Of a stretch of 64,000 bases of DNA, positions 24,153-50,725 are shown piece by piece. The number at the start of each line of letters is the position of its first letter. The stretch's first letter is position 1. Position numbers and translations under genes: made by a program. This DNA is from Cyclobacteriaceae bacterium (GTDB taxonomy: Bacteria > Bacteroidota > Bacteroidia > Cytophagales > Cyclobacteriaceae): contig JAHCHY010000017.1 of assembly GCA_026129485.1 (NCBI GenBank), forward strand, positions 32,627 to 96,626, in the 5' to 3' direction. The notes under the pieces were generated by a model that was given only the letters and a program-made list of their open reading frames with translations, searched no databases and was not told the origin of the DNA.

Positions 24153-24782
24153 ATGAAAAACGTTTCTCTTGCCCTTAACGGGATACTGGTATTGGCTGTA
24201 GCCGTTTTGTATTACCTGCATTTTTCTTCCGGAAGCAAACCTGCAGGCATTGCTTCCGAGAGCAGCGGTATCCCAACCGATATTAAAATAGCCTATATCA
24301 ATTCTGATACGGTTTTGAAATACTACGATTTCTTTAAAGTGAATATTGAAAAGCTGGAGGCCAAAGGCAGGAAGCTGGATCAGGATTTGCAAAGCCGGGC
24401 GCAAAGTTTGCAGAACGACATCGCTGCGTACCAACGCAATTATGGAAGCATGACTATCGGCCAGGCCAAAGCCGTTGAAGAAGACCTGGGTAAGAAGCGC
24501 CAGAACCTGGATCTTTACCAGCGCAGTCTGGAGCAGCAACTAATGGAAGAGCAAGCCAAAGTAAATGAAGAGCTTTACCTGAAGGTTACGGATTACCTGA
24601 AAGAGTTCGCTAAAGAAAAAGACATCCAGGTTGTGCTGAAGTACAGCTCAAACAGTGATTTGCTCTACGGAGGTTCCGCTATCGATATTACACAGGATGT
24701 AATTAAAGGTTTGAATGACCAATACAAGCTGGATGTTGCAGCACCTAAAGCCAAGCCTGATACAACCAAGACCAAGAAGTAA
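24153..24782 (+). CDS. OmpH/Skp-like periplasmic chaperone
   Basis: 209 residues. A hydrophobic N-terminal segment (about 5-24) acts as a signal or membrane anchor. The rest fits the Skp/OmpH family: IKIAYINSDTVLKYYDFFK starts the small beta core, a long charged coiled coil follows (about 65-150), and the core closes with DIQVVLKYSSNSDLLYGG and AIDITQDVIKGLN. Skp-like proteins hold unfolded outer-membrane proteins in the periplasm. The Lys/Thr tail (PDTTKTKK) is a usual variable end. A strong terminator lies just downstream, so it is a single-gene unit. Confidence 0.88.
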   Translation: MKNVSLALNGILVLAVAVLYYLHFSSGSKPAGIASESSGIPTDIKIAYINSDTVLKYYDFFKVNIEKLEAKGRKLDQDLQSRAQSLQNDIAAYQRNYGSMTIGQAKAVEEDLGKKRQNLDLYQRSLEQQLMEEQAKVNEELYLKVTDYLKEFAKEKDIQVVLKYSSNSDLLYGGSAIDITQDVIKGLNDQYKLDVAAPKAKPDTTKTKK

Positions 24783-24842: not shown

Positions 24843-24887
24843 GTGTAGTCTTTGATTTTAGCTTAATTTGAAATCGTGAAAAGAAAT

Positions 24888-27800
24888 ATGTTGGCTTTTC
24901 TGGGCGTTAAGCCTGAGGAACAGGGGCAGGTCTGGCTCATGTTGGCCACGGGTTTCTTTATCGGTATTTTCATAGCTACCTACCAGGTAACGGCCGAATC
25001 ACTCTTCCTCAACAAGCTAAGCGATCAGTTAGACCGGGCTTTTCTTGTATCGGGTGTGCTGGGTATTGTATCCACCATTCTCTTTACGTTTTTTCAGAAC
25101 CGGATAAAGTTTGTAACGCTTACCATCAGCAGTATAGTGCTGATCATTATTGCCACCTTTTCCATCTACTATTTCTATCACTTTGCAGATGAAAAGATTC
25201 AGAACACTACTCTTTTTGTCATGTATTGCCTGGTTGGCCCTATTACAGCCATCCTGCTCTTATGCTATTGGGGTATTTTCGGAAGGCTGTTCAACTTTAA
25301 GCAGTCCAAGCGGATAATCGGCTGGATTGACACGGGGCAACTGATTGCCATTATCCTGGCCAACTTCCTTATCCCGTTTACGGCTGCCTGGTTTCCGGAT
25401 ACATCCAATTACCTGATCGTATGCAATATAAGCATCATAGGTTCATTGGCTTGCCTGATTGTGATTGCGTCTAAGTACACCCTGGCCCGCCTTAGTACCG
25501 ATATTGAGGTAAGGGCCCAGACGCGGTTTGGAAAAATATTTAATGACCGTTACATCAGGTTGCTTTCCGTGTTCCTGATTATTTCAATGGTGATGTTCAG
25601 CTTGAATCAATTCACCTTTCAGACTTTATTAAATAAGCAATATCCCGATCAGCGCGACCTTACAGACTTCCTGGCTTACTTCAATGGTACTATCTACGCG
25701 CTAAGCCTGCTCATGCAGTTGTTTGTTAACGACCGCATCCTGGGAACTTACGGCATCCGAATTTCGCTGTTTATATTACCCATTGTAGTTGCCATTCTTT
25801 CCGCGGGCTCTGTATTTGCGGGAATCTTCCTCGGGTACGATGTAGAGCTCAGCCCGCAAACCTACATTTACTTTTTCCTGTTCGTTGCTGTTACAAGGCT
25901 TTTCAACACCATGCTTAAAGACTCGCTCGAAAGCCCTATTTACAAGCTGTTATTTATCCCGCTGGATAGCCGGGTACGCTTTAATATTCAGGCTAAGGTA
26001 GAGGGAGTGGTTAACGAGTCCGGCCGTTTTATGGCCGGGTTGCTGATTTTCCTGTTTGCCATGGTGCCCTTCTTTAAAATTATCTGGATACCCATAATTG
26101 TACTTGGGTTAATTTTAGCATACTACCGTGTTATTCAGAACCTGTACCAGGAATACAAGGAGAAGATCAAATCGAAGCTTGAGTTTGGGGGCGAAAGGCA
26201 AGACAGGCTTGAGGTAGGGTACAAGGAGGTTACCACCCGGCTGGAATCGAATCTTCAGGATGACGATTCCGCCAGGGCTGTGTTCTCGTTTAAGTTGCTG
26301 GAAAAGATCGACCCCGGTAAGGTGAGTGCGTGGATAAATGTGCTGATGAAAAATTCCCAGGAAACCACGCGGGATTATGCGCAGCGCAAGATGAACGAGC
26401 TGAAAGGTTTGTCTGTATCGGATCACTATGTGATCCGGTTAGATAAAAGCAGGATTTCTGATGATAAGAATGTGCTCTCCCGAAATGAATTGGACCTGAT
26501 TCTCAACAGCGGGGGGGATATCCAGAAGTCCCGTATACAGCGCCTGGCCAGGTCTACCGATGTTAACGACAGGCATTATTGTGCGGAGCTGTTGTTGCAT
26601 TCACAAAATCGCGAGAACATCTCGTTCCTCATAGAATTGCTGAATGATAGCAATAATAAGGTTAGAAGTGCCGCAATCAAAACCGCTGTAAAGCGACATG
26701 ATAACGAAGTAACATCTGCCCTGATTGAAAACCTGGGGCAACCGGAATACGCCAACGAGGCAATGAATGCGCTGATCCAGGTGGGCGAGTCAGCGTTGCC
26801 CCTGCTGGACAATGCATTCTACAGGCCGGGGCAAAGCTCACCCATCATGTTAAAGCTGGTGCAGATAATCGGTGTGATAGGAGGCAGCAAGGCAAAAGAA
26901 ATCCTTTGGAACAAAATCGATTATCCTGATAAGGTAATTGTATCGCAGGTATTGCTGTCATTGGGGGAGTCTGGATTTAAAGCGGGAATGTCGCAGATCA
27001 GCCGGATCAAGTATGCCATAGAATCAGATATCGGGGCCATTGCCTGGAACCTGGGTGCGCTTACCGAGGTGGGTGATGGTGAGCATTCGCGTGTGGTACG
27101 AAGAGCGCTGAACCGCGAGATCAAAAATGACATTGAGCATATCTATATGTTGCTGGCCATGTTGTACGATACGCGCTCCATTCAGTTGGTAAAGGAGAAT
27201 ATTGATAGCGGTACTTCCGAAGGCATTACCTATGCTATTGAATTGCTGGATGTGTTTCTTTCCGAGCAACTGAAAATGCGGGTGTTGCCCGTGCTGGACG
27301 ACCTGAACATTAATGAAAAGCTGAAGCGGCTGGAGATATTTTATCCCCGCGTTCCCCTGGATGAAAAGCTTGTCCTTAAATTTTTGATAAACCGGGATTT
27401 TACACAGAGCAACCGGTGGACAAAAGCGGCTGTGCTTCACCAGATCGGGGAGCAACGGATAGCCGCGTTTAATCTCGACCTGATAGCCCAATTGTTCAAC
27501 CCGGATCTTCTTATTCGCGAAACGGCTGCATGGGCATTAAACCAGGTTGATCCGGAGCTGTATGAAACGCATGTTTCCCGTTTGGGCCCGGAAGTTAAGC
27601 GTTTGCTGGATAAATCAGTGCTTGGAAAAGGAGCGGATGCTAACCTGATGTTGTATGACAAGGTTTTGTTTTATCAGCAAACCGACTTGTTTGAAGGCGT
27701 GCCTGGTGTGGTTCTTTCCGACCTGGCCGATATAACCCGAACCATTAACCTCGACAAAGACAGCCTGGTTGTTGATGAAACAAGCAGTACTGATTTTTAT

Positions 27801-28025
27801 ATCGTTTATAAGGGTGAGGTTGATTACTATGAACGTCATCAGGGCAAAATAACTTACCAGCCCGGACAATTTGTAGGCGAGCGCCTGTCAGCGCCCGGGT
27901 ATATTAACAGTCATGTTTTAAAGGCAAAGGAAAAGTCAATCCTGCTGAAGGTTAACAAAGATCAGTTCTACGAGCTTTTGTCCGAGCATGTTCAGATGGC
28001 TGACAAGTTTTTGGAATATATCTGA
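24888..28025 (+). CDS. ATP/ADP translocase-like membrane protein fused to HEAT repeats and a cyclic-nucleotide-binding-like domain
   Basis: 1045 residues. Residues about 1-415 contain roughly 12 membrane helices resembling the plastid/parasite ATP:ADP translocase family within the MFS. A charged stretch follows, then HEAT-type helical repeats (about 540-905; e.g. DSNNKVRSAAIKTAVKR, IRETAAWALNQV). The end (about 930-1045) has the shape of a cyclic-nucleotide-binding domain (FYIVYKGEVDYYERH, GQFVGERLSAPG), but the phosphate-binding Arg-Ala is replaced by HVLKA. ATG 24888 is preferred over GTG 24876: a near -7 box (TTAATTTG) ends 17 nt before it. It may be a sensor or scaffold rather than a nucleotide exchanger. 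The STAND NTPase gene follows after 137 nt. Confidence 0.8.
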   Translation: MLAFLGVKPEEQGQVWLMLATGFFIGIFIATYQVTAESLFLNKLSDQLDRAFLVSGVLGIVSTILFTFFQNRIKFVTLTISSIVLIIIATFSIYYFYHFADEKIQNTTLFVMYCLVGPITAILLLCYWGIFGRLFNFKQSKRIIGWIDTGQLIAIILANFLIPFTAAWFPDTSNYLIVCNISIIGSLACLIVIASKYTLARLSTDIEVRAQTRFGKIFNDRYIRLLSVFLIISMVMFSLNQFTFQTLLNKQYPDQRDLTDFLAYFNGTIYALSLLMQLFVNDRILGTYGIRISLFILPIVVAILSAGSVFAGIFLGYDVELSPQTYIYFFLFVAVTRLFNTMLKDSLESPIYKLLFIPLDSRVRFNIQAKVEGVVNESGRFMAGLLIFLFAMVPFFKIIWIPIIVLGLILAYYRVIQNLYQEYKEKIKSKLEFGGERQDRLEVGYKEVTTRLESNLQDDDSARAVFSFKLLEKIDPGKVSAWINVLMKNSQETTRDYAQRKMNELKGLSVSDHYVIRLDKSRISDDKNVLSRNELDLILNSGGDIQKSRIQRLARSTDVNDRHYCAELLLHSQNRENISFLIELLNDSNNKVRSAAIKTAVKRHDNEVTSALIENLGQPEYANEAMNALIQVGESALPLLDNAFYRPGQSSPIMLKLVQIIGVIGGSKAKEILWNKIDYPDKVIVSQVLLSLGESGFKAGMSQISRIKYAIESDIGAIAWNLGALTEVGDGEHSRVVRRALNREIKNDIEHIYMLLAMLYDTRSIQLVKENIDSGTSEGITYAIELLDVFLSEQLKMRVLPVLDDLNINEKLKRLEIFYPRVPLDEKLVLKFLINRDFTQSNRWTKAAVLHQIGEQRIAAFNLDLIAQLFNPDLLIRETAAWALNQVDPELYETHVSRLGPEVKRLLDKSVLGKGADANLMLYDKVLFYQQTDLFEGVPGVVLSDLADITRTINLDKDSLVVDETSSTDFYIVYKGEVDYYERHQGKITYQPGQFVGERLSAPGYINSHVLKAKEKSILLKVNKDQFYELLSEHVQMADKFLEYI

Positions 28026-28162: not shown

Positions 28163-31100
28163 ATGTTAAACTATTCTGTAGAGGTTGGCGATTTGAATGA
28201 ACCATCACCGGATTCCAAGCATTCCGGGGAGAAGGTTGGTGCTAACCCGTTTCCCGGGCTCAGACCTTTTACGCTTGCCGATAGCCACCTGTTTTTTGGT
28301 CGTGAAGGCCAGGTAGATGAAATCCTGCTCAAGCTTTATAAGAACCGGTCGGTAACCATAATGGGTTACTCGGGTAGCGGTAAATCAAGCCTGGTGAATT
28401 GCGGCTTAATACCCGTGCTGTATGGTGGCTTCATGACCGAAACGGGGCCGCATTGGAAGATTATTACTATTCGTCCGGGCAATTCACCAATCGATAATCT
28501 TGCACAGGCAACCGTAAATTTCCTCGTAGAAGAGGGGAGGATTGCACGGGAAGATAAGCGCATTCATAAGGCAATCATTAATTCTGTGCTGCGAAACAGC
28601 CCGCAAGGGCTGATTGAGCTGGCACGTTATATTCAGGTTCATACACACGAGAATGTCTTTTTCCTGATCGATCAGTTCGAAGAGCTTTTCCGGTTCAAAC
28701 ACTCCGATCCGGAAAATATAGACGAGGCGATGGCCTATGTAAATATGATGCTGACGGCCGTAGCCCAACGGGAAACATCCGTTTATATGGCCATTAATAT
28801 GCGGTCGGACTTTATCGGTGAATGTGCAGCATTTCCGGGCCTTACACAATTGATTAATACCAGCAATTATCTGGTGCCCCAGATGTCGCGCGAGCAGAAG
28901 CGTATGGCTATTGAAGGCCCGGTGGCTGTCGGTGGAGGCAGAATATCTACCAGGTTAATCAAGCGGTTGCTTTCTGATGTGGGCGACAATCAGGATCAGC
29001 TCCCGATTTTACAGCATGCGTTAATGCGTACATGGGATTACTGGGTAGCTAACCGCGAGCCCGGTGAGCCGATGGACACCAGGCATTATAACGCAATCGG
29101 ACGTATCGGGCAGGCATTATCACTCCACGCAAATGAAGCTTATGATGAGCTGAGCGCCCAGGAAAAACATATTGCTGAAGTCTTGTTTAAAACCCTTACC
29201 GAGAAGAACGCGGAAGGGCTTGAAATGCGCAGGCCGGCTAAAGTGGCAAATGTGGCAGAGCTGGCCCAGGCCACGGATGACCAGGTAATTGCCGTAGTTG
29301 AACAATTCCGGAAACCGGGCCGCTCGTTTTTGATGCCGGGCATGCACGTGGATCTGAAGTCCACTACCCAGGTCGAGTTGTCGCACGAGAGCTTAATGCG
29401 TATCTGGACAAGGCTTGCCACGTGGGTAAACGAAGAGTACGAGTCGGCACAGATGTACAGGCGTGTATCCGATGCTGCAGCCATGTACCAGATTGGTAAA
29501 ACCAGCTTGTGGCGTCCGCCCGATCTGCAACTGGCGCTTAACTGGCAAAAGAAACAGAACCCTACGCGACAATGGGCCCAGCGTTATGATATAGCGTTTG
29601 AACGGGCCATTGTTTTTCTGGATACCAGCCGCATAACCTATGAGGCTGAATTAAAGAACCAGGAGATGCTGCAGCGCAGAATGTTGCGCAGGGCACGGAT
29701 AACCAACCTGATTTTGGGTTTGCTGCTATTGGTAGCAACCGGATTCTTTGTTTATGGATTTTTCCAGAGAATAGAGGCGGAAAGGCAGAGCCTGTTGGCT
29801 CAGGCTAAACAAATAGAGGCTGAAGCGGCATCTGAGGAAGCGAATATTCAAAGGCAGAAAGCAGTTGATGCACTTCAAGTAGTCGAACAACAGAAAGAAG
29901 AACTTGATAGACAATACACTGCGTTGAAGGAATCGGCTGAAAAACTTCGACTTGCACTATTAGAGGCGGAAATACAAAGAAATAGAGCAGAGGCAAATGC
30001 CAATGAGGCCCTCGTTCAACGCGATAGTGCACGCTTAGCCCGGGATCTTGCTGACAAAAACTTTAAACTGGCACAAGAGAATTATGACAATGCCTTCAGG
30101 TTACTAATGCTCCAGAAAGCCCAATCGTTGGCCGCTAAATCCGAAGGAATTGATGAGCCTCAGCTTGCCGGATTGACGGCTATGCAAGGCTATTTGTTCC
30201 ATACAAAATACCAGGGCAAGCAATACGATCCTTATATCTTCCGCGGGCTGTATTATGCTATCGCAAAACTCCAGGGGTATAACTACAATGCTGTTAAAAT
30301 GCCTGGTGGGTTAAGGAACAGGATGTACGCAGTTGCGGTATCTAATCAGAGTTCTGCTTTCTACACCACAGGTAATGATGGCCGGATTTATAAGGCCGAT
30401 TACAAAAATCAAGCTGCTCCGCAAGTTATTTACGAGAACAAAGGATTCCCGAATCGCGTTCTTGCCCTGAGCAAGGATGACAAATACCTGGTAAATGCCA
30501 GCGACTCAAGCTACTTAGAGATTATTAACCTGGTAACAGGAGGAAAGCCCCTGGTTGTAACCGGGCATACCCGCATGGTTACCGATATGAAATTCCTGCC
30601 GGATAATTCCGGGTTTATAACAACGTCATCGGACAAAACACTAAGGATTACTAATGCCGTAAATGGTCAGGGCCGGAAGATCGTTACCCTTCCTTACGAG
30701 CTGAAAGCAATTGATATAAGCCCTGATGGTAAGCAGGTAGCCGGGGTTTCTGTTTCCGGTAAAGTACTGCTGATAGATGTGGCCGGTGGCAGCTATAAAG
30801 AAATCTGGACCGATGAAAATGTGATCAGGACCAGCGATTCAACTAAAACGGTTAAAGTGGCCAACCGCATTATTTCCGTGGCCTGGCATCCGCAAAGGAA
30901 CCTGATTGGTTTTGGAGTAGAAGTATTGAATGATAAGCGAAACCAGGTTTTGCGCGGGGTGGTTAAACTCCTTGATTTAAGAACCAACAGGGTAAAAGAG
31001 CTTTCAGGACATAAAGCCGGTATTTCTGATCTGAAGTTTAGCCCGGATGGCCTATTACTGGCCAGTGCCGGCCTGGACAGCAAGCTCCAGATGTGGGTGA

Positions 31101-31366
31101 TTGATCATGAAGAAGATTTGCCGATCGTGATGGATAACAACAACGGATCAGTATGGGACATTGGCTTTACACCGGATTCCAATTACCTGGTCGCTTCGTG
31201 TAACAATGGTGAGGTACGTGTCTGGCCAACCGATACGCGAATGCTGGCCGAGCAGGTTTGTCCTAAAATGCAACGTAATATGACCCAGGAAGAGTGGCAT
31301 AGCTATGTAGGTCCGGATGTTGACTATGAGTCTACGTGCAGGAGTCTTTTAATCAAGAGTTTTTAA
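28163..31366 (+). CDS. Membrane-anchored nSTAND1-type NTPase with coiled coil and WD40 repeats
   Basis: 1067 residues. The N-terminal NTPase has the nSTAND1 entry signature NPFPGLRPF and FFGREGQVDEI, Walker A GYSGSGKS (68-75) and Walker B VFFLIDQFEE (165-174). A winged-helix part follows (QLPILQHALMRTW). One membrane helix at about 515-536 (NLILGLLLLVATGFFVYGF) leads to a long charged coiled coil (about 540-650). The last 350 residues are WD40-like repeats (GHTRMVTDMKFLPD, SGHKAGISDLKFSPDGLLLASA). With a single helix, NTPase and propeller should lie on opposite membrane sides. STAND proteins are ATP-driven switches that assemble on a trigger. The barrel gene's ATG overlaps its TAA, so translation is coupled. 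Confidence 0.88.
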   Translation: MLNYSVEVGDLNEPSPDSKHSGEKVGANPFPGLRPFTLADSHLFFGREGQVDEILLKLYKNRSVTIMGYSGSGKSSLVNCGLIPVLYGGFMTETGPHWKIITIRPGNSPIDNLAQATVNFLVEEGRIAREDKRIHKAIINSVLRNSPQGLIELARYIQVHTHENVFFLIDQFEELFRFKHSDPENIDEAMAYVNMMLTAVAQRETSVYMAINMRSDFIGECAAFPGLTQLINTSNYLVPQMSREQKRMAIEGPVAVGGGRISTRLIKRLLSDVGDNQDQLPILQHALMRTWDYWVANREPGEPMDTRHYNAIGRIGQALSLHANEAYDELSAQEKHIAEVLFKTLTEKNAEGLEMRRPAKVANVAELAQATDDQVIAVVEQFRKPGRSFLMPGMHVDLKSTTQVELSHESLMRIWTRLATWVNEEYESAQMYRRVSDAAAMYQIGKTSLWRPPDLQLALNWQKKQNPTRQWAQRYDIAFERAIVFLDTSRITYEAELKNQEMLQRRMLRRARITNLILGLLLLVATGFFVYGFFQRIEAERQSLLAQAKQIEAEAASEEANIQRQKAVDALQVVEQQKEELDRQYTALKESAEKLRLALLEAEIQRNRAEANANEALVQRDSARLARDLADKNFKLAQENYDNAFRLLMLQKAQSLAAKSEGIDEPQLAGLTAMQGYLFHTKYQGKQYDPYIFRGLYYAIAKLQGYNYNAVKMPGGLRNRMYAVAVSNQSSAFYTTGNDGRIYKADYKNQAAPQVIYENKGFPNRVLALSKDDKYLVNASDSSYLEIINLVTGGKPLVVTGHTRMVTDMKFLPDNSGFITTSSDKTLRITNAVNGQGRKIVTLPYELKAIDISPDGKQVAGVSVSGKVLLIDVAGGSYKEIWTDENVIRTSDSTKTVKVANRIISVAWHPQRNLIGFGVEVLNDKRNQVLRGVVKLLDLRTNRVKELSGHKAGISDLKFSPDGLLLASAGLDSKLQMWVIDHEEDLPIVMDNNNGSVWDIGFTPDSNYLVASCNNGEVRVWPTDTRMLAEQVCPKMQRNMTQEEWHSYVGPDVDYESTCRSLLIKSF

Positions 31367-32478
31367 TGAGCTGGCGTATTCTCATTTTTTTGGTTACCCT
31401 TAATCACCTTGTATTTGCCCAGGGGTTTGATCCGGAGCCGGTTTTGCTACAGGCGGGAGAAGAATTTAATGCCGGTCGTTACTACGGGTTGCCAGCGTTA
31501 TTGAAACCCGTTATCGAAAATTCCAAGACCACCAACGAACAATTAGTCAGGGCATACTTGCTGTTAACCCAGGCGTATCTTATCCTCGATGATCCGGCTG
31601 CAGCAGAAGACAGTTATCTTAAGCTGTTAAAAGCCGACCCGGAGTATGTGGCCAATCCTGCCCGTGATCCGATTGATGTGTACTACCTGAGCAAAAAGTT
31701 TACATCCACACCAATTATTACGCCTCATATCCGGGCGGGATTTAACACCTCTGTACCACGCATCATTCATGAGCTTACAGTTAGCGGCACCGCCATTGAT
31801 ACTCGTAATGTATTAAAGATAGGAGTACAGTTGGGTATGGGATTCGACCTTAACCTGACGAATAAGATCAGCATTTGTGCAGAAGGAAACTATGCGAACA
31901 AAGCATTTAAGCGAAATACCGCTAAGGGCAGTAACAAGTACTTCGGGGCCGATAATCTCTCCACAGTAGAGCGGCAAAACTGGTTTGATGTGCCGCTGTA
32001 TATAAAATATTCAGCTGACTCAGGTAAAATCCGGCCCTTCGGATATGCCGGGTTTGCATTTAACTTCTTGTTTTCATCGCGCGGCAATAACTGGGAATTC
32101 AGAAATGAATCTTCCGATGGAAATGTAAGGGAAGCGACCGGCCCTGCTGAGCAGCTCACCTACAAGCGAAATTTTTTGAATCGTTCGCTGGTGTTGGGTG
32201 GTGGCGCCAAATATAAAGTCGGAAAGAATTTTTTGTATGCCGATTTACGCTACATGGTGGGGTTATCGAACCTTACCCGCGAAGAGAATATTTATTATCT
32301 CAAAGAGGGTGGCTTCGATCCTTCTGTGGTGAAATTTGCGGAAGTAAGTGATTTTTTCAGGCTGGATAATTTATCCGTTTCGATAGGATTTATACGCCCG
32401 ATCTATAACCCCAGGAAGAAATCGAAATCGCCATTCGAATTCTTAAAACGTAAGCATACAGTTCCTACCGATAATTAA
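31366..32478 (+). CDS. PorT-like outer-membrane beta-barrel with N-terminal helical-repeat segment
   Basis: 370 residues from ATG 31366, which overlaps the upstream TAA (TAATG). The signal peptide ends near LVFAQG (residue 19). Residues about 25-110 look like two TPR-type helix pairs (EQLVRAYLLLTQAYLILD, AAAEDSYLKLLKADPEYV). From about 120 the sequence alternates as an eight-stranded barrel of the PorT/OMP_b-brl family (VLKIGVQLGMGFDLNL, LYIKYSADSGKIRPFGYAG, LVLGGGAKYKVGKNFLYADL) and closes with LSVSIGFIRPIY. It probably sits in the outer membrane with the helical part in the periplasm, within reach of the WD40 end of the upstream NTPase. Its own gene end overlaps the next start. Confidence 0.82.
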   Translation: MSWRILIFLVTLNHLVFAQGFDPEPVLLQAGEEFNAGRYYGLPALLKPVIENSKTTNEQLVRAYLLLTQAYLILDDPAAAEDSYLKLLKADPEYVANPARDPIDVYYLSKKFTSTPIITPHIRAGFNTSVPRIIHELTVSGTAIDTRNVLKIGVQLGMGFDLNLTNKISICAEGNYANKAFKRNTAKGSNKYFGADNLSTVERQNWFDVPLYIKYSADSGKIRPFGYAGFAFNFLFSSRGNNWEFRNESSDGNVREATGPAEQLTYKRNFLNRSLVLGGGAKYKVGKNFLYADLRYMVGLSNLTREENIYYLKEGGFDPSVVKFAEVSDFFRLDNLSVSIGFIRPIYNPRKKSKSPFEFLKRKHTVPTDN

Positions 32479-33779
32479 TGACAAGATTAGGTTGCATATT
32501 GTTGATAGCGTTCATGTTTTCCTGCGATACGGAGCGTAATGTACCCGTTCTGGATGACAATACGTTTGTTAAATTTTATGGCAACGATGGCGAGCAAACC
32601 GGTGTTGATTTTGTTTTAACAGCCGATGGATCGATTGTAATGGTAGGTAACAGCGCATTACCCGGGCGCACTTCCATGATTTACGTGGTAAAGGTCGATT
32701 TGAAGGGTAATGTAATATGGGAAAATTTCATTGGGCTTTCTGATAAGCCCAACTATGTAAAGGATATTGAGTTGCACCCGGATGGAAGATTGATTATTGC
32801 CGGGGAAACGGAGATTACTCCGGGAAATCGCGATATATTTTTAAAAATAATGAGCGGCAGTGGAGCTGAATTGGATAGTACAAGGTATAGTTTAACCGCC
32901 ACCAGCGATGAAGAGGTCAATTCGGTAACGATTATAGGTGGAGGGGTAACAACTACTCAAAGTGGCTTCATCGTTTCGGGCGCCACAACGGCTGTGGATG
33001 ATGTAAAAGGCCCGCGTGATATACGGGATGGCATGCATGTTCGGTTTATTGATGAGCCAACGTTGCCGATTGCACCGTCAGCCTGGCTTAAAACAACGGG
33101 CAAGGATAATTCTGAAGATGTTATTGTCAAGGCAATTCAGATAGATGCAAACAGGATTCATTTCTTTGGTTACACCAATGTTGAATGGGGAGGCTCGGGA
33201 GATTTTAAATACTGGGTGTTTTCACTCAATGATGCAGGTGTTGAATTATATGAAGGAGAAGCGTTGTTCGATATTCTGGGGCAGGCAAATGAAGACGAGA
33301 TATTAAAAGCCGTTATCGATATTGATATTCCTGACCTGTTTGACAGGGGTTTTTTGTTAACGGGTGTGGCCCGGAACAATGCCGGAGTCTGCAGGAGTTA
33401 TGTAGTTAGATTAGACAGAAGTTTACAGTTCAATAACGAGAACCAGTTTTACCCGTCATCATTAGGATCATACCCGGATGCTGAGCTAAGAATGAACGGC
33501 TTCTATAATTCAATCAGTAACGATTTCCTGATCCTTGGCACCCAAAACATAAACTCAAACCTGTTTGAAGACTTTTCACTTTTTAAGCTCGATCGTCAGG
33601 GCTCACCGGTATGGGGCCCGTATGCATTTGGCGGAGAATCTTTTGATGAGGCCGGGGCTGTGCTTCAGCTGGCTGATGGTAAAATTATGGTTATGGGAAC
33701 CATGACGGTCGGGGGGCTTAACGGGCAGAAGAAAATGGCGCTGCTGAAATTGAATTCTGAAGGTAAATTACTTCGCTGA
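32478..33779 (+). CDS. Propeller-like lipoprotein of unknown function
   Basis: 433 residues. The signal peptide ends at a lipobox (LIAFMFSCDT, Cys16), so it is lipid-anchored, probably to the outer membrane. The body repeats a pattern seen in surface beta-propeller proteins: GVDFVLTADGSIVMVGNS, VVKVDLKGNVIWENFIG, IELHPDGRLIIAGET, and finally AGAVLQLADGKIMVMGTMT. Such repeats resemble the delta-60/SBBP-type repeats of secreted proteins. No enzyme motif is seen. Its ATG overlaps the TAA of the barrel gene (TAATG), giving a translationally coupled trio with the STAND NTPase. The giant T9SS protein begins 78 nt further on. Confidence 0.75.
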   Translation: MTRLGCILLIAFMFSCDTERNVPVLDDNTFVKFYGNDGEQTGVDFVLTADGSIVMVGNSALPGRTSMIYVVKVDLKGNVIWENFIGLSDKPNYVKDIELHPDGRLIIAGETEITPGNRDIFLKIMSGSGAELDSTRYSLTATSDEEVNSVTIIGGGVTTTQSGFIVSGATTAVDDVKGPRDIRDGMHVRFIDEPTLPIAPSAWLKTTGKDNSEDVIVKAIQIDANRIHFFGYTNVEWGGSGDFKYWVFSLNDAGVELYEGEALFDILGQANEDEILKAVIDIDIPDLFDRGFLLTGVARNNAGVCRSYVVRLDRSLQFNNENQFYPSSLGSYPDAELRMNGFYNSISNDFLILGTQNINSNLFEDFSLFKLDRQGSPVWGPYAFGGESFDEAGAVLQLADGKIMVMGTMTVGGLNGQKKMALLKLNSEGKLLR

Positions 33780-33857
33780 AGCCTTAAATCAGCCAAAAAT
33801 GGTTACTTTTACTGGGTCTATATTATTTAGAATCTGAAGTTGGCCAATACCGAATCT

Positions 33858-36800
33858 ATGCCCTTGACTTTACGACTGCCTACACGTAAAAATCCGTCAT
33901 CAGCAGTTGGGTTGTTTTCAGATTCCTTTCTTCAGGTATCCCGCTTATTCCTTGTATTCCTGGTAGTTACACTATCTACAAGGGCGTATGCCCAAAAAAC
34001 CTGGTTGCCGGCAACAGGCGGCAGTTGGACAGCAGGCGCCAACTGGAGCGGTGGCACACCACCGGTGGCAGGCGATGTGGTAATCATAAGCTCAGATCAA
34101 TCCGGAAACATTACCAATGTTCCCTCAATTTCATTGAACAGCTTGACCGTAAGCGGTTCTTGTGTTTTGGTTGGAGCCTCAAGCGGAAATACGATTACAG
34201 TTACAAATGTGTTTTCTGTTTCAGCCGGTGAAACTTTAACACTGGGAGGGACGGGAGGCAGGTTAAACTTTACGCTTGGTGCAGCTGCTACGGGTACGGT
34301 TTCGGGTACAGTTTCATTGAACGCAGGAGGGGCAGCGCGTACTTTTTTGGCTAATGGTGATCTTTCTATTCCTGCCGGAGGGTTACTGACAGGTGCTGGC
34401 TCAAGTAATTTTACACTTGGCTCCGGGGCTACCCTTAGGATTGGTTCTGCTGGTGGTATTGCTACTTCAGGCGCTACCGGTAGTGTTCAGGTAAATGGAA
34501 CAAGAAGTTATTCCACCTCGGCCAATTATCATTACATAGGAACTTCCAACCAGAGTGAAGGCACAGGACTTCCTGCAACGGTATCAAATCTTACTATTAA
34601 TAATACCGGGGGGGGTGGTAACAATACGATTACAATGGTCAGTAATGTGGCCATCACGAATTCACTCACCGTATCGAGCGGGGTTTTAGCGCTTGGAGCT
34701 AACAATATTACTTCCGTTTCGGCAATCAATATGACTGGTACTTCTATAACGGGTACAGGCACGATTACTCTTGCCGGAGATATAACAACAAACTTAAGTG
34801 GAACCATCGCTCTAATAAGCGCTCCGATTGCCCTAGGAGCAGTTAATCGTGTGTTCAATATTGCAGATGGGGCAGCAAACCCGGATTTGACAATTTCATC
34901 CGTTATCGGAGGAACCGGTTCTATCACGAAGAATGGTTCAGGAACCCTAACATTATCAGGTTCTAACACATTTACAGGTGGCTTAACCCTTAATACAGGC
35001 ACCGTAAATGCAAATAACACTAACTGTTTTGGTTCAAGTTCGGGTACATTAACAATTAATGGAGGTGCGTTGTCAAACACAACAGGTGGGGCAATAACCC
35101 TTACAAACTATCCTCAAACTTGGAACGGTGATTTTACCTACTTCGGAATCCAAAACTTGGATATGGGATCAGGATTAATCACTTTAACGGATCATAGAAT
35201 TGTTTCAGTTAACTCCAGTACACTTGGTTTAAGTGGAGTCTTGTCGGGTTCTTATGGGTTAACCAAAGATGGGGCAGGTGTTCTAATTTTAGGAGGAAAT
35301 AATACATTTACAGGAGGACTTGGAATAAATGCTGGTAGGGTAACGCTATCCAATCCAAATGCATTAAATTCTGGATCACCCAATGCTATTACTTATGGGC
35401 CTGGTAGTACCGGTACTTTAAGATTAAATGGATTAAGTGTAACGATCTCAGGACTGAACTCAAACGGAACTGTGGGTACACCAGTGGTAGAAAATGCAGG
35501 TGCCGTGTCTGCAACATTAACAATCACTACGTCCGGTTTAAACGACTATGCAGGAACAATTCAGGATTCTGGTTCGGCTCTCTCAATCGTAAAGAATGGT
35601 TCAGGCAGTTTGTCTTTGAGTGGTAGTAACTCCTATACTGGTGGTACAATATTGTCGGCCGGTACGCTTAATATCAATAGCGCCACGGCAATTGGTACAG
35701 GAACATTTACTATTTCGGGAGGAATACTTGATAATTCATCAGCAGGAGCAATTACACTATCGACCAATAACCCGCAAAACTGGAATGGCAATTTTGCCTT
35801 TACTGGAACCCAGAACCTTAATATGGGAACAGGTTCAGTAACGCCCAATGCAAGCAGGCAAGTAACTGTAAACGGAGGGGAGCTAACGATTGGCGGAGTA
35901 ATTGGTGGTGGCGCTATTGGAATCTCAAAGTTAGGTTCCGGAACACTCACCCTTGCTGGAGCTAATACATTTACAGGTGGTTTCACACTTGGCGGAGGAA
36001 CTTTGAATGTTAACCACGCAAATGCATTGGGAACATCAGCGGGTACCTTTACCATCAATGGAGGTATAATTGGTAATGCATCAGGAAGCCCCATTACAAC
36101 TACCAACTACCCTATAGCATGGAATGGCGATTTTGCTTTTAATGGCCCGCAAAATCTGAATCTAAGCACCGGGCCGGTTACACTAACCGCTAATCGCCAG
36201 GTAACAGTCAATTCAAATACGCTTACGGTTGGAGGAGCAATAAGTGCCCCTGCTTTTAATCTCACCAAATCAGGTGCGGGTACGTTTAGCTTTGGTTCGA
36301 ATAATGTTGTCTTAAACGGTTTAACTATAGATGCCGGAACTTTGACATCTACAAGTTCAACACTATTTCTGAATGGTAGCTTATCCAATTCAGGAACATT
36401 TAATCATAATTCAGGAACAGTTCATTACAATGGAGCCTCGACCCAGTTAGTGGGCGCGGTTGTTTATCACAATCTGGTTACATCCGGTGCAGGCCAGAAG
36501 AATGCGGCCGGAGCGATTACGGTTAATAACAACCTCACCAATTCAACTATTCTGGATTTAGGAGCAAATGCGCTTACCGTAACGGGTGTGCTCGATAATA
36601 CAGGCGGTAATCTGCGCTTTACCGGGGCCACTAATGGCATTGCAGTTGCCACCGGAACAGTTACCTATTATGGGGCATCCCAAACTATTGCATCGGGAAC
36701 CTATAACAATCTTGTTATTAACCAATCTTCGGGTCAGGCATCTTTGGGTGGAAATGTTACCGTGAATGGTACGCTCACGCTTACAAATGGAGTACTGAAT

Positions 36801-39800
36801 TTAGCGGGTTTCGATCTTACACTTGGCCCGGCAGCAACAATTTCAATAGCATCGCCTTCTGCCACAAGAATGATTATTGCCAATGGAAGCCGGGTAGTCA
36901 AGACTTTTTCCGGTACGGGTGCATTCCTGTTCCCCATAGGTGATAATACGGGAACAACAGAGTACTCGCCTGTAACAATTAATGTAACAGCAGGTGCCGG
37001 ATTTCCTGCTAATGTGGCTGTTTCGGTTGTAGATGCCAAGCACCCCAACAACATCAGCGCTTCAAATTTTTTAACCCGCTATTGGGAGGTTGACCAGAGT
37101 GGAATAACCGGTTGTACAGCTACCATTACCGCTACCTACCCCAATGCGGACATTACAGGGGCGGAGGGAAGTATTCACGCTGCCCAACTAACGGGAACAT
37201 TTGACCAGGCAGCTAACCCATGGGTTAAGTTTACGACATTAGCCTCAAATACACTAACGGCTGCTAACGCCAGCCTTCCAGCGGGACAGACAAATTATTT
37301 TACGGGTATAAGAGGAGCAAATCCTACAGCCTCCATTGTAGGTGGAGATGTATCCATTTGTACCGGTGGTTCGGTTGCACTTAATACAAATGTTACGGGA
37401 GACGGGCCCTTTACATATTCATGGAGCCCTGTGGCCGGGTTGTCGGCTGCCAATATTGCTAATCCTGTTGCATCTCCTGTTACCACTACCGGCTATACAG
37501 TTACGGTTAAAGATGGCAATGGAATCTCAGCAACTGATAATACAACCATAACCGTTACCCCGATACCATCTGCCCCTATTGTTAGTCCTGCGGGGCCTGT
37601 TACAGTATGTGAGGGTTCGTCAGCAATCATATTAACAAGCGATGCAGCCACCGGCAATCAGTGGTATAAGGATGGTTTTCTACTGGGAGGCGAGACCGGT
37701 ACTACAATAAACATTACAACTAACCCGGCAAACAGCGGTAACTATACTGTTATCAGCACGGTTAGCGGTTGCCCTTCTGCTGTGTCGAATACGGTAGCCG
37801 TAACGATCCATGCTTTACCGCTTAGCACCCCAGTCGTAAGTCCTGCCAATACAACTATATGTAACGGAAGCACTGTTACCGTTACTATTGTTGGCACAGA
37901 ACCGGGAATTAACTATAGGTTGCTTGATGGTGTTACTCCTGTGAGCGTATATGTTGCCGGAACGGGAGGTTCGATAAACCTGGTAAGCTCGCCATTAACA
38001 GCAAGCACTACCTTAACAGTTGAAGCCTATAATCCGGTAACGGGTTGTACCCTGAGTCTGTCAGGCACTACTGCGGTAACGGTTAACGCAAGCATCCCAA
38101 CCCCGGTAATCACACCGGTTGGCCCGGTAATGGCATGTGTGGGAGATCCTGCAGTAATACTTGGCAGCAGTGCGGTTAGTGGAAACCAATGGTACAAGGA
38201 TGGAGTGCTGATTCCCGGAGAAGTAAATCAAACCCTTAGTGTATCAACAGCTGTAGCTAACAGTGGAAGCTATACGGTATATGAGATACAGGCCGGATGT
38301 ACTTCTGCTGTTTCAGCGCCTGTTAATATTATAATCAATTCAATTGCAAGCCCCCCGGTTGCATCAAATCCAGCTCCCATCTGTTTGGGAGGAGCAATAC
38401 CCGCCTTAACAGCTACGGGTACTGATCTGAAATGGTATTCAGATGCAGCACTCACAACTTTGGTAGGAACAGGTAGCCCGTTTACACCGGGCGTTTTCGA
38501 AGTTGATAATATGACACCAGGTACCTATCATCTCTATGTAACTCAAACCATAGATTGTGAGAGTCCCGCTACAACGGTAAGTGTTTTAGTTGATTTTGCT
38601 GTGATAGCAAACGCAGGAGTTAATACAGACCTTTGTGATGGTCAGAGTATTTCCCTGGGTGGAAGTCCATCGGCTTCAGGTGGAAACGGAACATATACGT
38701 ATAACTGGACAAGTTTGCCACCAAGCTTTACAAGTAACCAGTCAAACCCGGTAGTAATACCGGCATTAGGTACAACAACTTATATTTTACAGGTTACGGA
38801 TGCCTTTGGGTGCACTGATACAGATCAAATTGATGTAACGGTTAATGAGATTCCTGTATTTATGATAACAAACAATACAGGAGGTGGAACAGGTCATATT
38901 TGCAGTGGCTCATCAATTTCAATTGCCCTTGCTTCACCTACAGCTGGGTCCACCATCAGCCTGCAACCGGTTAACTATGGCGCATTTATAACCGGGGGAT
39001 TGTATCCTGCCGGGGGAACGTTTGCTGATGGAAATGTTCTTACAGAAGGAGCAGGACTCACCAATACTTCGAATGCACCGGTAAGCATTGTGTACACATT
39101 TAGTGTGGCTACCCCGGATTGTGCTAATCCGGTTACCCAGCAGGCGACCATAGTGGTTAATCCAACACCGGTGCTCAGCATTACAAATAATTCACCTTCT
39201 ATATGCAGTAATTCAGCCGTAGATATTTTGCTGAACAGCGCAACTTCGGGTGCAGTTGTAAGAATTACATCTGTAAATTATGGCTCAGTAACCGGGGGAA
39301 CTTTATCGGCCGGCTCCACATTTACCCCCGGTTCCGGTATCACAGAAACGCTGATCAATTCGGGGAATAATCCTGTTACAGTCCGATATAATCTTGAAGT
39401 GGAAGCGAATGGCTGTACCACTTCCGGGTACTTTACGGATGTGGTAGTAAATCCCAATCCCACTTTTGTGGCGACTAATTTTGCTCCGCAGATTTGTCAT
39501 GGCGATCAAACCAGTATTTTCTTTGGAAGCGTAACAGCCGGACATCAGATTAATGTGGTAGCGGTATTCTATGGTGGTGTAACCGGTGGCACGGTTAACC
39601 CGGGGATAACAACATTCAATAGCGCCACGCCTCTCCAGGAAACTTTGTTCAACACTACCCATGCACCGATAGATGTCGAGTATGTATTTAATGTAACAAC
39701 ACCGGCTACAACCCCGGTTTGTCCACTCGCACCAGCTAACCAGGTGGTTACAGTTCGGGTCTATCCGAATCCGACATTTACGGTTACGAATAACTCAGGA

Positions 39801-42800
39801 GGAGGAACGGGCACGATCTGCAGCGGGCAGCAATCCAGTATTCTTATCAACACACCGATTAGCGGAGGACAAGTACGGTTGGCGAGTGTTACTTACGGAG
39901 CAGTAACAGGATCGTATGCCGCAGGGGCCTTATTTACTAATGGTCAGTCCTTATCTGAAGCATTGATTAATAATACAGGTTCTCCGCTTACTGTGGATTA
40001 CGAGTTTGAGGCTATTGTTGGTTCATGCGGTCCAAGCGCAAGCCAGGTTGTTAGTGTAACCGTAAACCCGGTTCCGAACGTAGTAGCCTTACCCGCCTCA
40101 CAAACCATTTGCAGCGGGACGAATACAAACATCGCCTTAAGCACGACCAACGGAGTTGGAGGCGCAACCTATAGCTGGACGGTAGTCCAGAGTGGGGTAA
40201 GCGGGGCCACATCCGATACGGGTTCAACGATCAGCCAGACATTAACAGCCACGGGCTCGACATCCGGAACCGCTACCTATACGATCACCCCTAATGCAGG
40301 GGGATGCAATGGCGCCCCGGTTACGGTGATAGTAACGGTTAACCCGTTACCGGATGTAGTCGCTACACCTAATACAGAATCGATCTGCAGCGGGGGTACT
40401 ACCAGTATCAACTTAAGTACGACTAATGGAGTAGCAGGCGCAACCTACAGTTGGACGGTAGTGCAAAGTAATGTAAGCGGGGCCACTTCAGGCTTTGGTG
40501 CGAGCATCAATCAAACGTTAACTACCACTACAAGTTCAGCCGGTACGGCTACCTATACGATCACGCCAAGCGCCAGTGGTTGCACTGGCACCCCGGTAGT
40601 AGTGGTGGTAACCGTTAGTCCAACCCCGAACGTAGTAGCCTTACCTGCCTCACAAATCATTTGCAGCGGAACGAACACAAACATTGCCTTAAGTACGACC
40701 AACGGAGTTGGAGGCGTAACCTATAGCTGGACAGTCGTTCAGAATAATGTAAGCGGAGCTACGTCCGGTACAGGTGGTACGATCAGCCAGGTGTTAACGG
40801 CTACTACAAGCAGTTCGGGTACCGCCACGTATACCATTACACCATCATCAGGCGGCTGCAACGGCACCCCGGTTACAGTGATAGTAACGGTAAACCCGTT
40901 ACCGGATGTAATTGCTACCCCGAATACAGAATCTATCTGTAGCGGAGGCACTACCAATATCAGCTTAAGTACGACCAATGGCGTGGCAGGTGCAACGTAT
41001 AGCTGGACAGTAGTGCAGAGCAATGTAAGCGGAGCAACCTCAGGCTTTGGCACGAGCATCAACCAGACATTAACCGCTACTACAAGTTCAGCCGGTACCG
41101 CTACCTATACGATCACACCATCAGCTAATGGCTGTAATGGCACTCCGGTAGTAGTGGTGGTAACGGTTAATCCTGTTCCGAACGTAGTAGCCTTACCTGC
41201 CTCACAAACCATTTGTAGTGGAGCGGATACAAACATCGCCTTAAGCACGACCAACGGAGTTGGGGGCGCAACCTATAGCTGGACGGTAGTTCAGAGCGGG
41301 GTAAGCGGGGCGACATCCGACACGGGTTCAACGATCAGCCAGACATTAACCGCCACAGGCTCGACACCGGGTACAGCTACCTATACGATCACACCTAATG
41401 CAGGCGGCTGTAATGGCACCCCGATAACAGTTATCGTAACGGTTAACCAGCTACCGGATGTAGTAGCCACACCAAATGCGGAAACGATATGTAGTGGCGC
41501 AACTACCAACATTGGTTTAAACACTACCAACGGAGTAACAGGCGCAACCTACAGCTGGACAGTAGTGCAGAGCAATGTAAGCGGAGCAACCTCAGGTTTT
41601 GGTACGAGCATCAATCAAACATTAACGGCCACTACAAGCGCAGCTGGTACCGCTACCTACACGATCACGCCATCAGCCAGTGGCTGCAACGGCACCCCGA
41701 TAGTAGTGGTGATAACGGTAAACCCGGCCCCGAACGTAGTGGCCTTACCCGCCTCACAAACCATTTGCAGTGGAGCGAATACAAACATTGCTTTAAGTAC
41801 CACCAATGGAGTCGGAGGCGCAACATACAGTTGGACAGTGATTCAGAATAACGTAAGCGGAGCCACGTCCGGTACAGGCAGTACGATCAGTCAGGTGTTA
41901 ACGGCTACTACAAGCAGTTCGGGTACCGCCACGTATACCATTACACCATCATCAGGCGGTTGCAATGGCACCCCGATAACAGTTATTGTAACGGTTAATC
42001 CGTTACCGGATGTAGTGGCCTCACCAAACACGGAAACGATATGTAGTGGAGCAACTACCAGTATCAACTTAAGCACCACCAATGGTGTAACAGGCGCTAC
42101 CTACAGTTGGACAGTGGTGCAAAGTAATGTAAGCGGAGCAACCTCAGGTTTTGGTACGAGCATCAATCAAACATTAACTGCCACTACAAGCGCAGCAGGC
42201 ACCGCTACCTACACAATCACACCATCAGCTAATGGTTGCAATGGCACTCCAATAGTAGTGGTGGTAACCGTTAATCCAACCCCGAATGTAGTAGCGTTAC
42301 CCGCCTCACAAACCATTTGCAGTGGAGCGAATACAAACATTGCTTTAAGTACGACAAACGGAGTTGGAAGCGCAACATACAGTTGGACGGTAGTCCAGAG
42401 TGGAGTAAGTGGAGCGACATCCGATACGGGTTCAACGATCAGCCAGACATTAACAGCCACGGGCTCGACATCCGGAACAGCTACGTATACCATCACCCCT
42501 AATGCAGGTGGTTGCAATGGTGCCCCGATAACAGTTATTGTAACGGTAAACCCGTTACCGGATGTAGTGGCTACCCCGAATACAGAATCTATCTGTAGCG
42601 GGGGCACTACCAATATCAGCTTAAGCACCACCAATGGTGTGGCAGGCGCGACCTACAGTTGGACGGTAGCGCAGAGTAATGTAAGCGGGGCCACTCCGGG
42701 CTTTGGTACATCAATCAATCAAACGTTAACCGCTACCACGAGCGTAGCAGGCATAGCGACCTACACGATCACGCCATCAGCTAATGGTTGCACTGGCACC

Positions 42801-49294: not shown

Positions 49295-49323
49295 TCGGGG
49301 GGCGGGGGTTTGGTGGTTTAGGT

Positions 49324-50685: not shown

Positions 50686-50725
50686 GCGTAACACTTTATC
50701 TTTATACTTCCCACCGGAATGCTGT

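Follow-up and report, generated by a model that had tools for sequence, protein, structure and literature searches.

The window, a stretch of 64,000 nucleotides from a Cyclobacteriaceae bacterium (contig JAHCHY010000017.1), contains a row of forward-strand genes centred on a STAND NTPase gene, which is followed directly by genes for an outer-membrane barrel and a lipoprotein. An earlier note, made from the sequence letters, had described these three genes (28163–33779) as coupled by TAATG overlaps and had proposed that their products might form one outer-to-inner membrane sensor. Both overlaps are present at 31364–31368 and 32476–32480, exactly where that note placed them, and the open reading frames (ORFs) encode 1067 residues (28163–31366), 370 residues counted from the ATG (31366–32478) and 433 residues (32478–33779). 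Pfam matches and hydropathy also bore out the products it named: a single-helix nSTAND1 NTPase ending in WD40, a barrel, and a propeller lipoprotein. The boundary at three genes was rejected, as a transporter gene and a gene for a giant protein recur at the same positions in the loci of relatives. The interval of the note omits these two conserved neighbours, which lie upstream (24876–28025) and downstream (33840–47381). The features of the locus, with the evidence for each in brackets, are as follows.

24876–28025, +: NTT-type (ADP/ATP carrier fold) transporter that opens the cassette and carries, towards its C-terminus, HEAT repeats and a cyclic-nucleotide-binding-like domain (HEAT_2, cNMP_binding, PDB profile matches)
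28163–31366, +: nSTAND1 NTPase with one transmembrane helix, a long stalk and a C-terminal WD40 propeller (PF20703, WD40)
28247–29494, +: nSTAND1 domain, residues 29–444, predicted cytosolic (Pfam, topology count)
29708–29764, +: single transmembrane helix, residues 516–534, with RRMLRRAR just before it (hydropathy)
29765–30169, +: Ala-heptad stalk, predicted helical, from the transmembrane helix to the region before the propeller (heptad periodicity)
30317–31306, +: WD40 propeller region, about residues 719–1048, predicted periplasmic, with the conserved Cys1033 inside and Cys1059 just after (Pfam, alignment, topology)
31364–31368, +: TAATG stop/start overlap from STAND to barrel (sequence letters)
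31366–32478, +: outer-membrane barrel with signal peptide and an N-terminal, predicted periplasmic TPR-like domain, residues 19–112, 31420–31701 (PF13568, TPR profile)
32476–32480, +: TAATG stop/start overlap from barrel to lipoprotein (sequence letters)
32478–33779, +: delta-60/DUF5122 propeller lipoprotein, Cys16 (PF17164, lipobox)
33840–47381, +: giant repeat surface protein, start codon uncertain, with a C-terminal sorting domain of the type IX secretion system (T9SS) (Pfam)
45780–47381, +: C-terminal region of the giant protein, residues 3981–4513, common to A- and B-type giants (phmmer)

A conserved gene cassette around the STAND gene

The cassette was defined by gene clustering of 40 neighbourhoods taken from relatives and by profile annotation of 80 named loci. 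Strains that have it include Dawidia soli, Parachryseolinea silvisoli and Fulvivirga. Its order is transporter (NTT, HEAT and a cyclic-nucleotide-binding domain, cNBD), SpoIIE phosphatase, TIR–DUF4062 protein, STAND, TPR-barrel, lipoprotein, and giant T9SS-tailed protein. The TIR–DUF4062 protein (Pfam TIR_2 and DUF4062) is present in B-type loci and the SpoIIE phosphatase in some loci only, with Pfam matches beside the STAND gene in L056 (where it carries HAMP), L170 and L175. Proteins of 653–694 residues occupy the SpoIIE position in L134, L137, L138, L143, L144 and L146, and their ends look alike by eye. In A-type loci, which have no TIR gene, the transporter gene ends 86–144 bp 5′ of the STAND gene on the same strand (21 sources, the window included).

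The spacing from STAND to barrel is −32 to +83 bp in 36 of 41 sources (40 loci picked for holding a STAND match, plus the window) and that from barrel to lipoprotein is −20 to +31 bp in 35 of the 41; TIR and STAND lie −29 to +89 bp apart in 16 sources. Starts were taken from the longest ORF, so these overlap figures are approximate. Tight spacing is conserved among the relatives, and the exact TAATG form is not. The gene after the barrel encodes the lipoprotein in 99 of 107 distinct cases and another product in 8, L060 and L061 among them. Following these 99 lipoprotein genes was a same-strand ORF of at least 900 residues in 58 cases, a shorter one cut at the end of the stretch in 28, a shorter complete one in 6, an opposite-strand gene in 4, and nothing in 3.

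Only two STAND matches of this family were found in the genome of the window. The second lies in a B-type cassette, in which the STAND is 42% identical and which has its own TIR protein, barrel, lipoprotein and a giant of 1936 residues. By our own count, an A-type STAND (at least 57% identity) is present in 34 of the 36 genomes of the genus, the exceptions being G012 (76% complete) and G016. A tree of 116 distinct STANDs placed every one of the 45 A-tagged sequences in a single clade (support 1.0), which also took in 8 untagged tips and had no TIR-type or TonB-type tips; this single TIR-free clade reads as one loss of the TIR gene.

The window transporter matched HEAT_2 at 55.8 bits and cNMP_binding at 27.0 bits, just under the cut-off of 27.5, and by itself gave no Pfam transporter match. 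Profile A4 of the transporter family matched the ADP,ATP carriers 9j3j (E = 5e-18) and 9j3n (E = 2.7e-17) in the PDB, and solved cNBDs were matched by the family profile with E values down to 1.5e-27. The lipoprotein contains the DUF5122 propeller repeat (PF17164, 30.1 bits, cut-off 27; TIGR02608 below its cut-off) and a lipobox-type Cys16 in ...FMFSC. The lipobox pattern is found in 98 of 112 relatives, a count that includes duplicates where loci overlap.

The giant protein matched PF19406 (PKD_5) in 16 stretches, PF19081, passenger-type repeats of PF12951, and PF18962 (35.8 bits, cut-off 27). A phmmer search with its last 533 residues against 317 ORFs of more than 900 residues, one gene being present twice, gave 23 ORFs from both locus types (full-sequence E = 6e-110 to 7e-36), and a match to the giant of the genome's own B-type cassette was found as well (E = 2.5e-48). 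Ten close copies of a PKD-like repeat were counted by motif at about 40107–43143; these are likely to recombine or misassemble. The genome has a T9SS, with SprA_N at 501.6 bits and 31 sorting-domain tails above the cut-off.

Further genes border the cassette. An OmpH/Skp-like gene at 24153–24782 stands directly 5′ of the transporter gene, as in many A-type loci, and was not seen there in B-type loci. Immediately downstream of the giant, on the opposite strand (47378–50694, −), comes a hybrid histidine kinase with PAS, HisKA, HATPase, receiver and Hpt domains, together with a sigma-54-type response regulator. In one genome (G023/SSA6) the lipoprotein and giant genes are broken into several ORFs (L034/L075) and the barrel gene is broken (L068), and in G031 (L038) the STAND gene is broken near its end. 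These split genes are either pseudogenes or assembly errors.

Predicted topology of the STAND and the TPR-like domain of its candidate partner

The nSTAND1 domain (PF20703) of the window protein matched at 313.7 bits (cut-off 27.1) and the WD40 end at 87 bits (cut-off 27), and the Walker A (GxSGxGKSS) and Walker B (DQFEE) motifs are invariant in 18 aligned sequences, the window included. All 116 distinct STANDs have one hydrophobic helix within residues 450–640, and 112 have no further helix. Lys and Arg together average 5.6 in the 15 residues before the helix versus 2.3 after it, and the count before exceeds that after in 115 of the 116. The single helix and this excess on the NTPase side predict that the NTPase is cytosolic and the WD40 end periplasmic, which is where the earlier note had put it.

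Between helix and propeller, the stalk shows a period-7 Ala power of 0.83 versus 0.16 in permuted sequence. The linker from the helix to the pre-propeller motif measures 124–162 residues in the 98 of 116 STANDs where the motif was found, and 135–139 residues in 71 of these 98. An alpha-helix rises 0.15 nm per residue, so 135 residues as one helix would reach about 20 nm, near what we take to be the width of the periplasm. In the 18-member alignment the C-terminal Cys pair never varies; of the 116 STANDs, 105 have both Cys, 9 have neither and 2 have only one, as expected of a disulfide.

The window barrel matched PF13568 (OMP_b-brl_2) at 50.1 bits (cut-off 27). The periplasmic helical repeats that the earlier note had recognised correspond to its N-terminal TPR-like domain, for which the TPR matches of the window protein fall below the Pfam cut-off. 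A sequence search of the PDB with the window barrel gave no match, and a profile search gave one weak match (1k24, E = 0.02). Within residues 16–120, exactly two Cys are found in 77 of 118 barrels and none in 8, duplicate copies being kept. The window barrel has none there; for the others, the two-Cys pattern fits a domain predicted to be periplasmic.

In six loci (L066, L067, L178, L183, L184 and L185), a TonB-dependent receptor (PF07715, PF00593) directly follows the STAND. A profile built from the TPR part only matched the N-termini of all six receptors (E = 7e-15 to 4e-20), a count that holds partly by construction, since L066 and L067 were found by eye and the other four through the barrel profile. 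Apart from the barrel family and these six, none of the 1483 locus ORFs (a total that includes overlapping loci) was matched by the TPR-only profile at E < 1. A barrel-only profile matched none of the six. The TPR match lies within residues 26–139 and the plug starts at 132–162, which places the TPR part in front of the plug. In the loci examined, every TonB receptor seen directly after a STAND had the TPR part. The six STANDs concerned form one clade (support 1.0 in the tree of 116, rooted on the A-type). The TPR domain is thus kept through the barrel swap, which makes it the natural candidate for the contact of the STAND.

Several observations concern the surroundings of these variants. STAS and HATPase_c_2 genes lie just 5′ of the STAND in L178 (by Pfam) and L066 (by likeness). 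A large sensor with Reg_prop/Y_Y_Y follows the transporter gene in L066, and its counterpart in another TonB variant, L193, appears by eye to end like a SpoIIE phosphatase. A distant relative in G090 (L186:5396–11714) combines a TIR protein, an nSTAND1 protein of 1401 residues with one transmembrane helix, and a PF13568 barrel without a TPR-profile match.

Co-inheritance of the cassette genes

The distribution of the cassette genes was evaluated in 194 genomes of the order, with thresholds of at least 850 bits for the STAND (55 genomes) and at least 170 bits for the barrel (54 genomes); the barrel list was entered down to 125 bits. Both genes were found in 53 genomes, the STAND only in 2, the barrel only in 1, and neither in 138. 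The transporter (E ≤ 1e-100) was present in 52 of the 194 genomes, all 52 with the STAND, and the lipoprotein (E ≤ 1e-30) in 46, of which 44 had the STAND. Because the search lists give scores for the top few candidates of each genome only, they may lack weaker additional copies. By the earlier note, the complex idea would fail if homologous NTPases routinely lacked the barrel and lipoprotein genes or if the WD40 end were cytosolic. Both checks came out in favour of the note, as close NTPase homologues seldom lack the barrel and the WD40 end is predicted to be periplasmic. The lipoprotein is looser, found in 44 of the 55 STAND genomes. In the phylum sample, a STAND match (E ≤ 1e-120) was present in 14 of 296 genomes, a patchy distribution outside the order.

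The barrel gene lies directly 3′ of 57 of 66 NTPase matches of at least 850 bits, namely 52 of 54 at 1100 bits or more and 5 of 12 at 850–1100 bits. Among the nine without an adjacent barrel, G443 is near a contig end, G502 has the TonB-receptor version, and seven (G053, G384, G488, G409, G471, G496 and G448) have barrel matches on other contigs. In addition, 113 of the 116 distinct STANDs have a downstream neighbour, and in 108 this is a TPR-barrel or TPR-TonB protein.

In some genomes the cassette genes are unlinked yet kept, a reading limited by contig breaks: the STAND contig of G496 (L173) ends 287 bp 3′ of the gene, and the stretch from G471 was left out. In several f15 genomes, unrelated genes follow the STAND (L170, L175, L176, L177) and a barrel–lipoprotein–giant cluster lies elsewhere, twice in G409 (L171, L172) and, among the stretches fetched, once in G496 (L174). 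G409 thus has two such clusters versus one listed STAND match. The transporter lies more than 400 kb from the STAND on the same contig in G450, G411, G359 and G386, all of one genus.

A proposed trans-envelope relay and its alternatives

Gene order, co-inheritance, domain content, one helix of predicted positive-inside orientation, and retention of the TPR part on barrel exchange are established at the level of sequence. Building on these, we lean towards a trans-envelope relay centred on the STAND ATPase, in which we infer the WD40–TPR contact, the outside-in direction, the oligomerisation and the output. The nSTAND1 domain would lie in the cytosol, and one helix would pass through the inner membrane. 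The Ala-heptad helical stalk of about 135 residues would span the periplasm and carry at its tip the WD40 propeller, in contact with the periplasmic TPR domain of the outer-membrane barrel. Barrel and propeller lipoprotein would hold or monitor the giant surface protein exported by the T9SS. Surface changes would alter the TPR–WD40 contact, and the altered contact would allow nucleotide exchange and oligomerisation of the STAND. Cytosolic partners would then relay the signal, the candidates being the TIR–DUF4062 scaffold, the HEAT/cNBD part of the transporter and, in loci that have one, the SpoIIE phosphatase. Of the earlier proposal that three genes make one outer-to-inner sensor, the linkage stood and the limit to three genes fell, the unit being larger; "sensor" and "complex" are terms that we infer.

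Several points weigh against the relay. The lipoprotein is missing (E ≤ 1e-30) in 11 of the 55 STAND genomes, and neither a lipoprotein-profile match nor a giant directly follows the TonB variants. The Fisher p values for presence and absence (about 1e-29 to 1e-44) ignore shared ancestry. For STAND matches at 508–702 bits, the barrel is directly downstream in 0 of 11; among these genomes, two that were inspected keep a barrel 13–14 kb away and one has a TonB variant. No barrel stands at the downstream position in 5 of the 113 STANDs with a neighbour there. Furthermore, neither a TIR nor a SpoIIE gene adjoins the A-type cassette in the window, the transporter could be a bystander, and the STAND topology comes from hydropathy and charge count.

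An alternative that we consider unlikely is that the system acts from the inside out, with STAND ATP use and the stalk controlling how the giant T9SS protein (elsewhere, a contractile injector) is assembled, displayed or released, and with no sensing. The T9SS tail of the giant and the C-terminal region common to the cassettes are consistent with such an actuator. So is a contractile-injection cluster in G450 (L179:824–19649), in which a STAND-WD40 gene (702 bits) and a TPR-barrel gene (185 bits) lie about 13 kb apart and the injector genes by Pfam are tape measure, baseplate J, gp25, PAAR and tube; the cluster in G411 (L180:84–19790) is alike gene by gene, by likeness only. The periplasm has no ATP, and a cytosolic ATPase on a periplasm-long stalk could supply energy there. 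Known STAND proteins, however, are switches rather than motors, and the TIR, SpoIIE, STAS and anti-sigma-like neighbours point to signalling. The genome also has 31 T9SS tails versus two STANDs of the family, which argues that the STAND is not needed for general T9SS export. As to direction, the SpoIIE, STAS and HATPase_c_2 neighbours favour inward signalling, and the injector cluster would fit the outward direction too.

Surface-triggered immunity, in which the barrel, TonB receptor or giant would be bait for a phage or competitor and the STAND with TIR–DUF4062 would cause abortive infection, appears rather improbable. The patchiness of the STAND family outside the order (14 of 296 genomes) is in keeping with it. 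Within the genus, by contrast, an A-type STAND is nearly universal (34 of 36 genomes), and in the A-type clade, made up of 45 tagged and 8 untagged tips (support 1.0), no TIR gene was seen beside the STAND. PADLOC, by which a defence-island reading was tried and rejected, gave weak matches only; the best for the STAND was 14.3 bits, on the stalk, and those for the transporter reached 18.9 bits. The catalytic Glu of TIR domains is presumably that of a CxxE motif; Glu is not conserved at this position in 12 aligned B-type TIR proteins, some of which have it. This would favour a scaffold role for the B-type TIR proteins. The literature lends immunity some support: the name nSTAND1 comes from work on predicted conflict systems (PMC8195603), and a further paper (PMC13174449) reports antiphage activity for DUF4062 proteins, described there as TIR-like NADases, and the union of DUF4062, NACHT and WD40 in human TEP1. 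A merely co-regulated set, in which NTPase, barrel and lipoprotein serve the same surface protein and share no structure, seems highly doubtful: operons often group the genes of one process without contact and the lipoprotein is not next after the barrel in 8 of 107 distinct cases, but co-regulation alone hardly explains the retention of unlinked genes and the TPR-preserving barrel swap.

Searches of open-licence PMC papers found related families only and no description of a STAND–barrel–lipoprotein operon. In FecA–FecR–FecI signalling, the outer-membrane receptor has a periplasmic N-terminal domain and passes its signal to an inner-membrane protein that crosses the membrane once and has its C-terminal part in the periplasm. 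The TPR of the TonB variants likewise precedes the plug, the position of the signalling domain in FecA. Here, in contrast, the domain is TPR and not STN, a STAND ATPase with WD40 takes the place of the FecR anti-sigma protein, and the window type has a small barrel and a giant. No STN domain was found on the six TonB variants (only Plug and TonB_dep_Rec at E ≤ 1e-3 or 0.1), and the window barrel consists of PF13568 and a weak TPR; no FecR or ECF sigma factor is among the Pfam matches of seven window proteins or the neighbours scanned, no genome-wide search having been made. SprB and SprF form a pair of giant T9SS adhesin and outer-membrane barrel, and here too a giant T9SS protein adjoins an outer-membrane barrel; unlike that pair, in profile scans the window barrel has no PorP/SprF match and the giant has a PF18962 tail with no gliding-type tail match. 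Another comparison is the T9SS lipoprotein PG1058, which we take to be PorE.

Like the cassette, PG1058 (PMC5053529) brings TPR and a propeller to the periplasmic side of the outer membrane in an organism with a T9SS. It differs in joining them with CRD and OmpA_C in one lipoprotein and in having no NTPase, whereas TPR and propeller are on different proteins here. The NTT–HEAT–cNBD fusion type was described by Major et al. (2017) (PMC5381601); its domain order is that of the first cassette gene, and the accessible parts of that paper describe no STAND or barrel link. Swarozyc (DUF4062 NADase defence) and TEP1 (PMC13174449) likewise have DUF4062 beside a STAND-type NTPase and WD40. In the cassettes, however, DUF4062 is in a separate TIR protein in the operon of a membrane STAND, and it is absent from the window cassette. 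The nSTAND1/STAND conflict sensors (PMC8195603, PMC10907252, PMC7159879), so far as the available excerpts go, share the PF20703 clade, WD40 as presumed sensor, and the TIR partner of B-type loci. Unlike them, the cassette STAND is membrane-spanning by prediction, genus-wide and linked to outer-membrane proteins, with its WD40 predicted to be periplasmic, and its TIR partner lacks a conserved Glu at the presumed catalytic position.

As proposed, the relay would belong to trans-envelope signalling from an outer-membrane protein to a single-pass inner-membrane protein, and there is a fair chance that it is a kind of its own. More tentatively, it could represent a new kind of two-membrane signalling, in which an ATP-driven STAND with a stalk-tip sensor would read a TPR adaptor carried by interchangeable outer-membrane heads. 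Such a head would be a TonB receptor, the envelope portion of a contractile injector, or the small barrel together with the giant T9SS protein; cytosolic output would run through TIR/DUF4062, SpoIIE/STAS and the NTT–HEAT–cNBD transporter. The swapping of barrels while one TPR adaptor is kept leads to a direct prediction, open to test, of where the contact lies. STAND ATPases are known as cytosolic sensors of the apoptosis and immunity type; if the relay exists, this would be a STAND switch turned outwards, watching the cell surface through two membranes. It would be a further answer, beside FecA–FecR and TonB/Tol-type coupling, to the problem of signalling across an envelope whose outer membrane has no ATP, and unstudied giant proteins and NTT–HEAT–cNBD fusions would gain a pathway.

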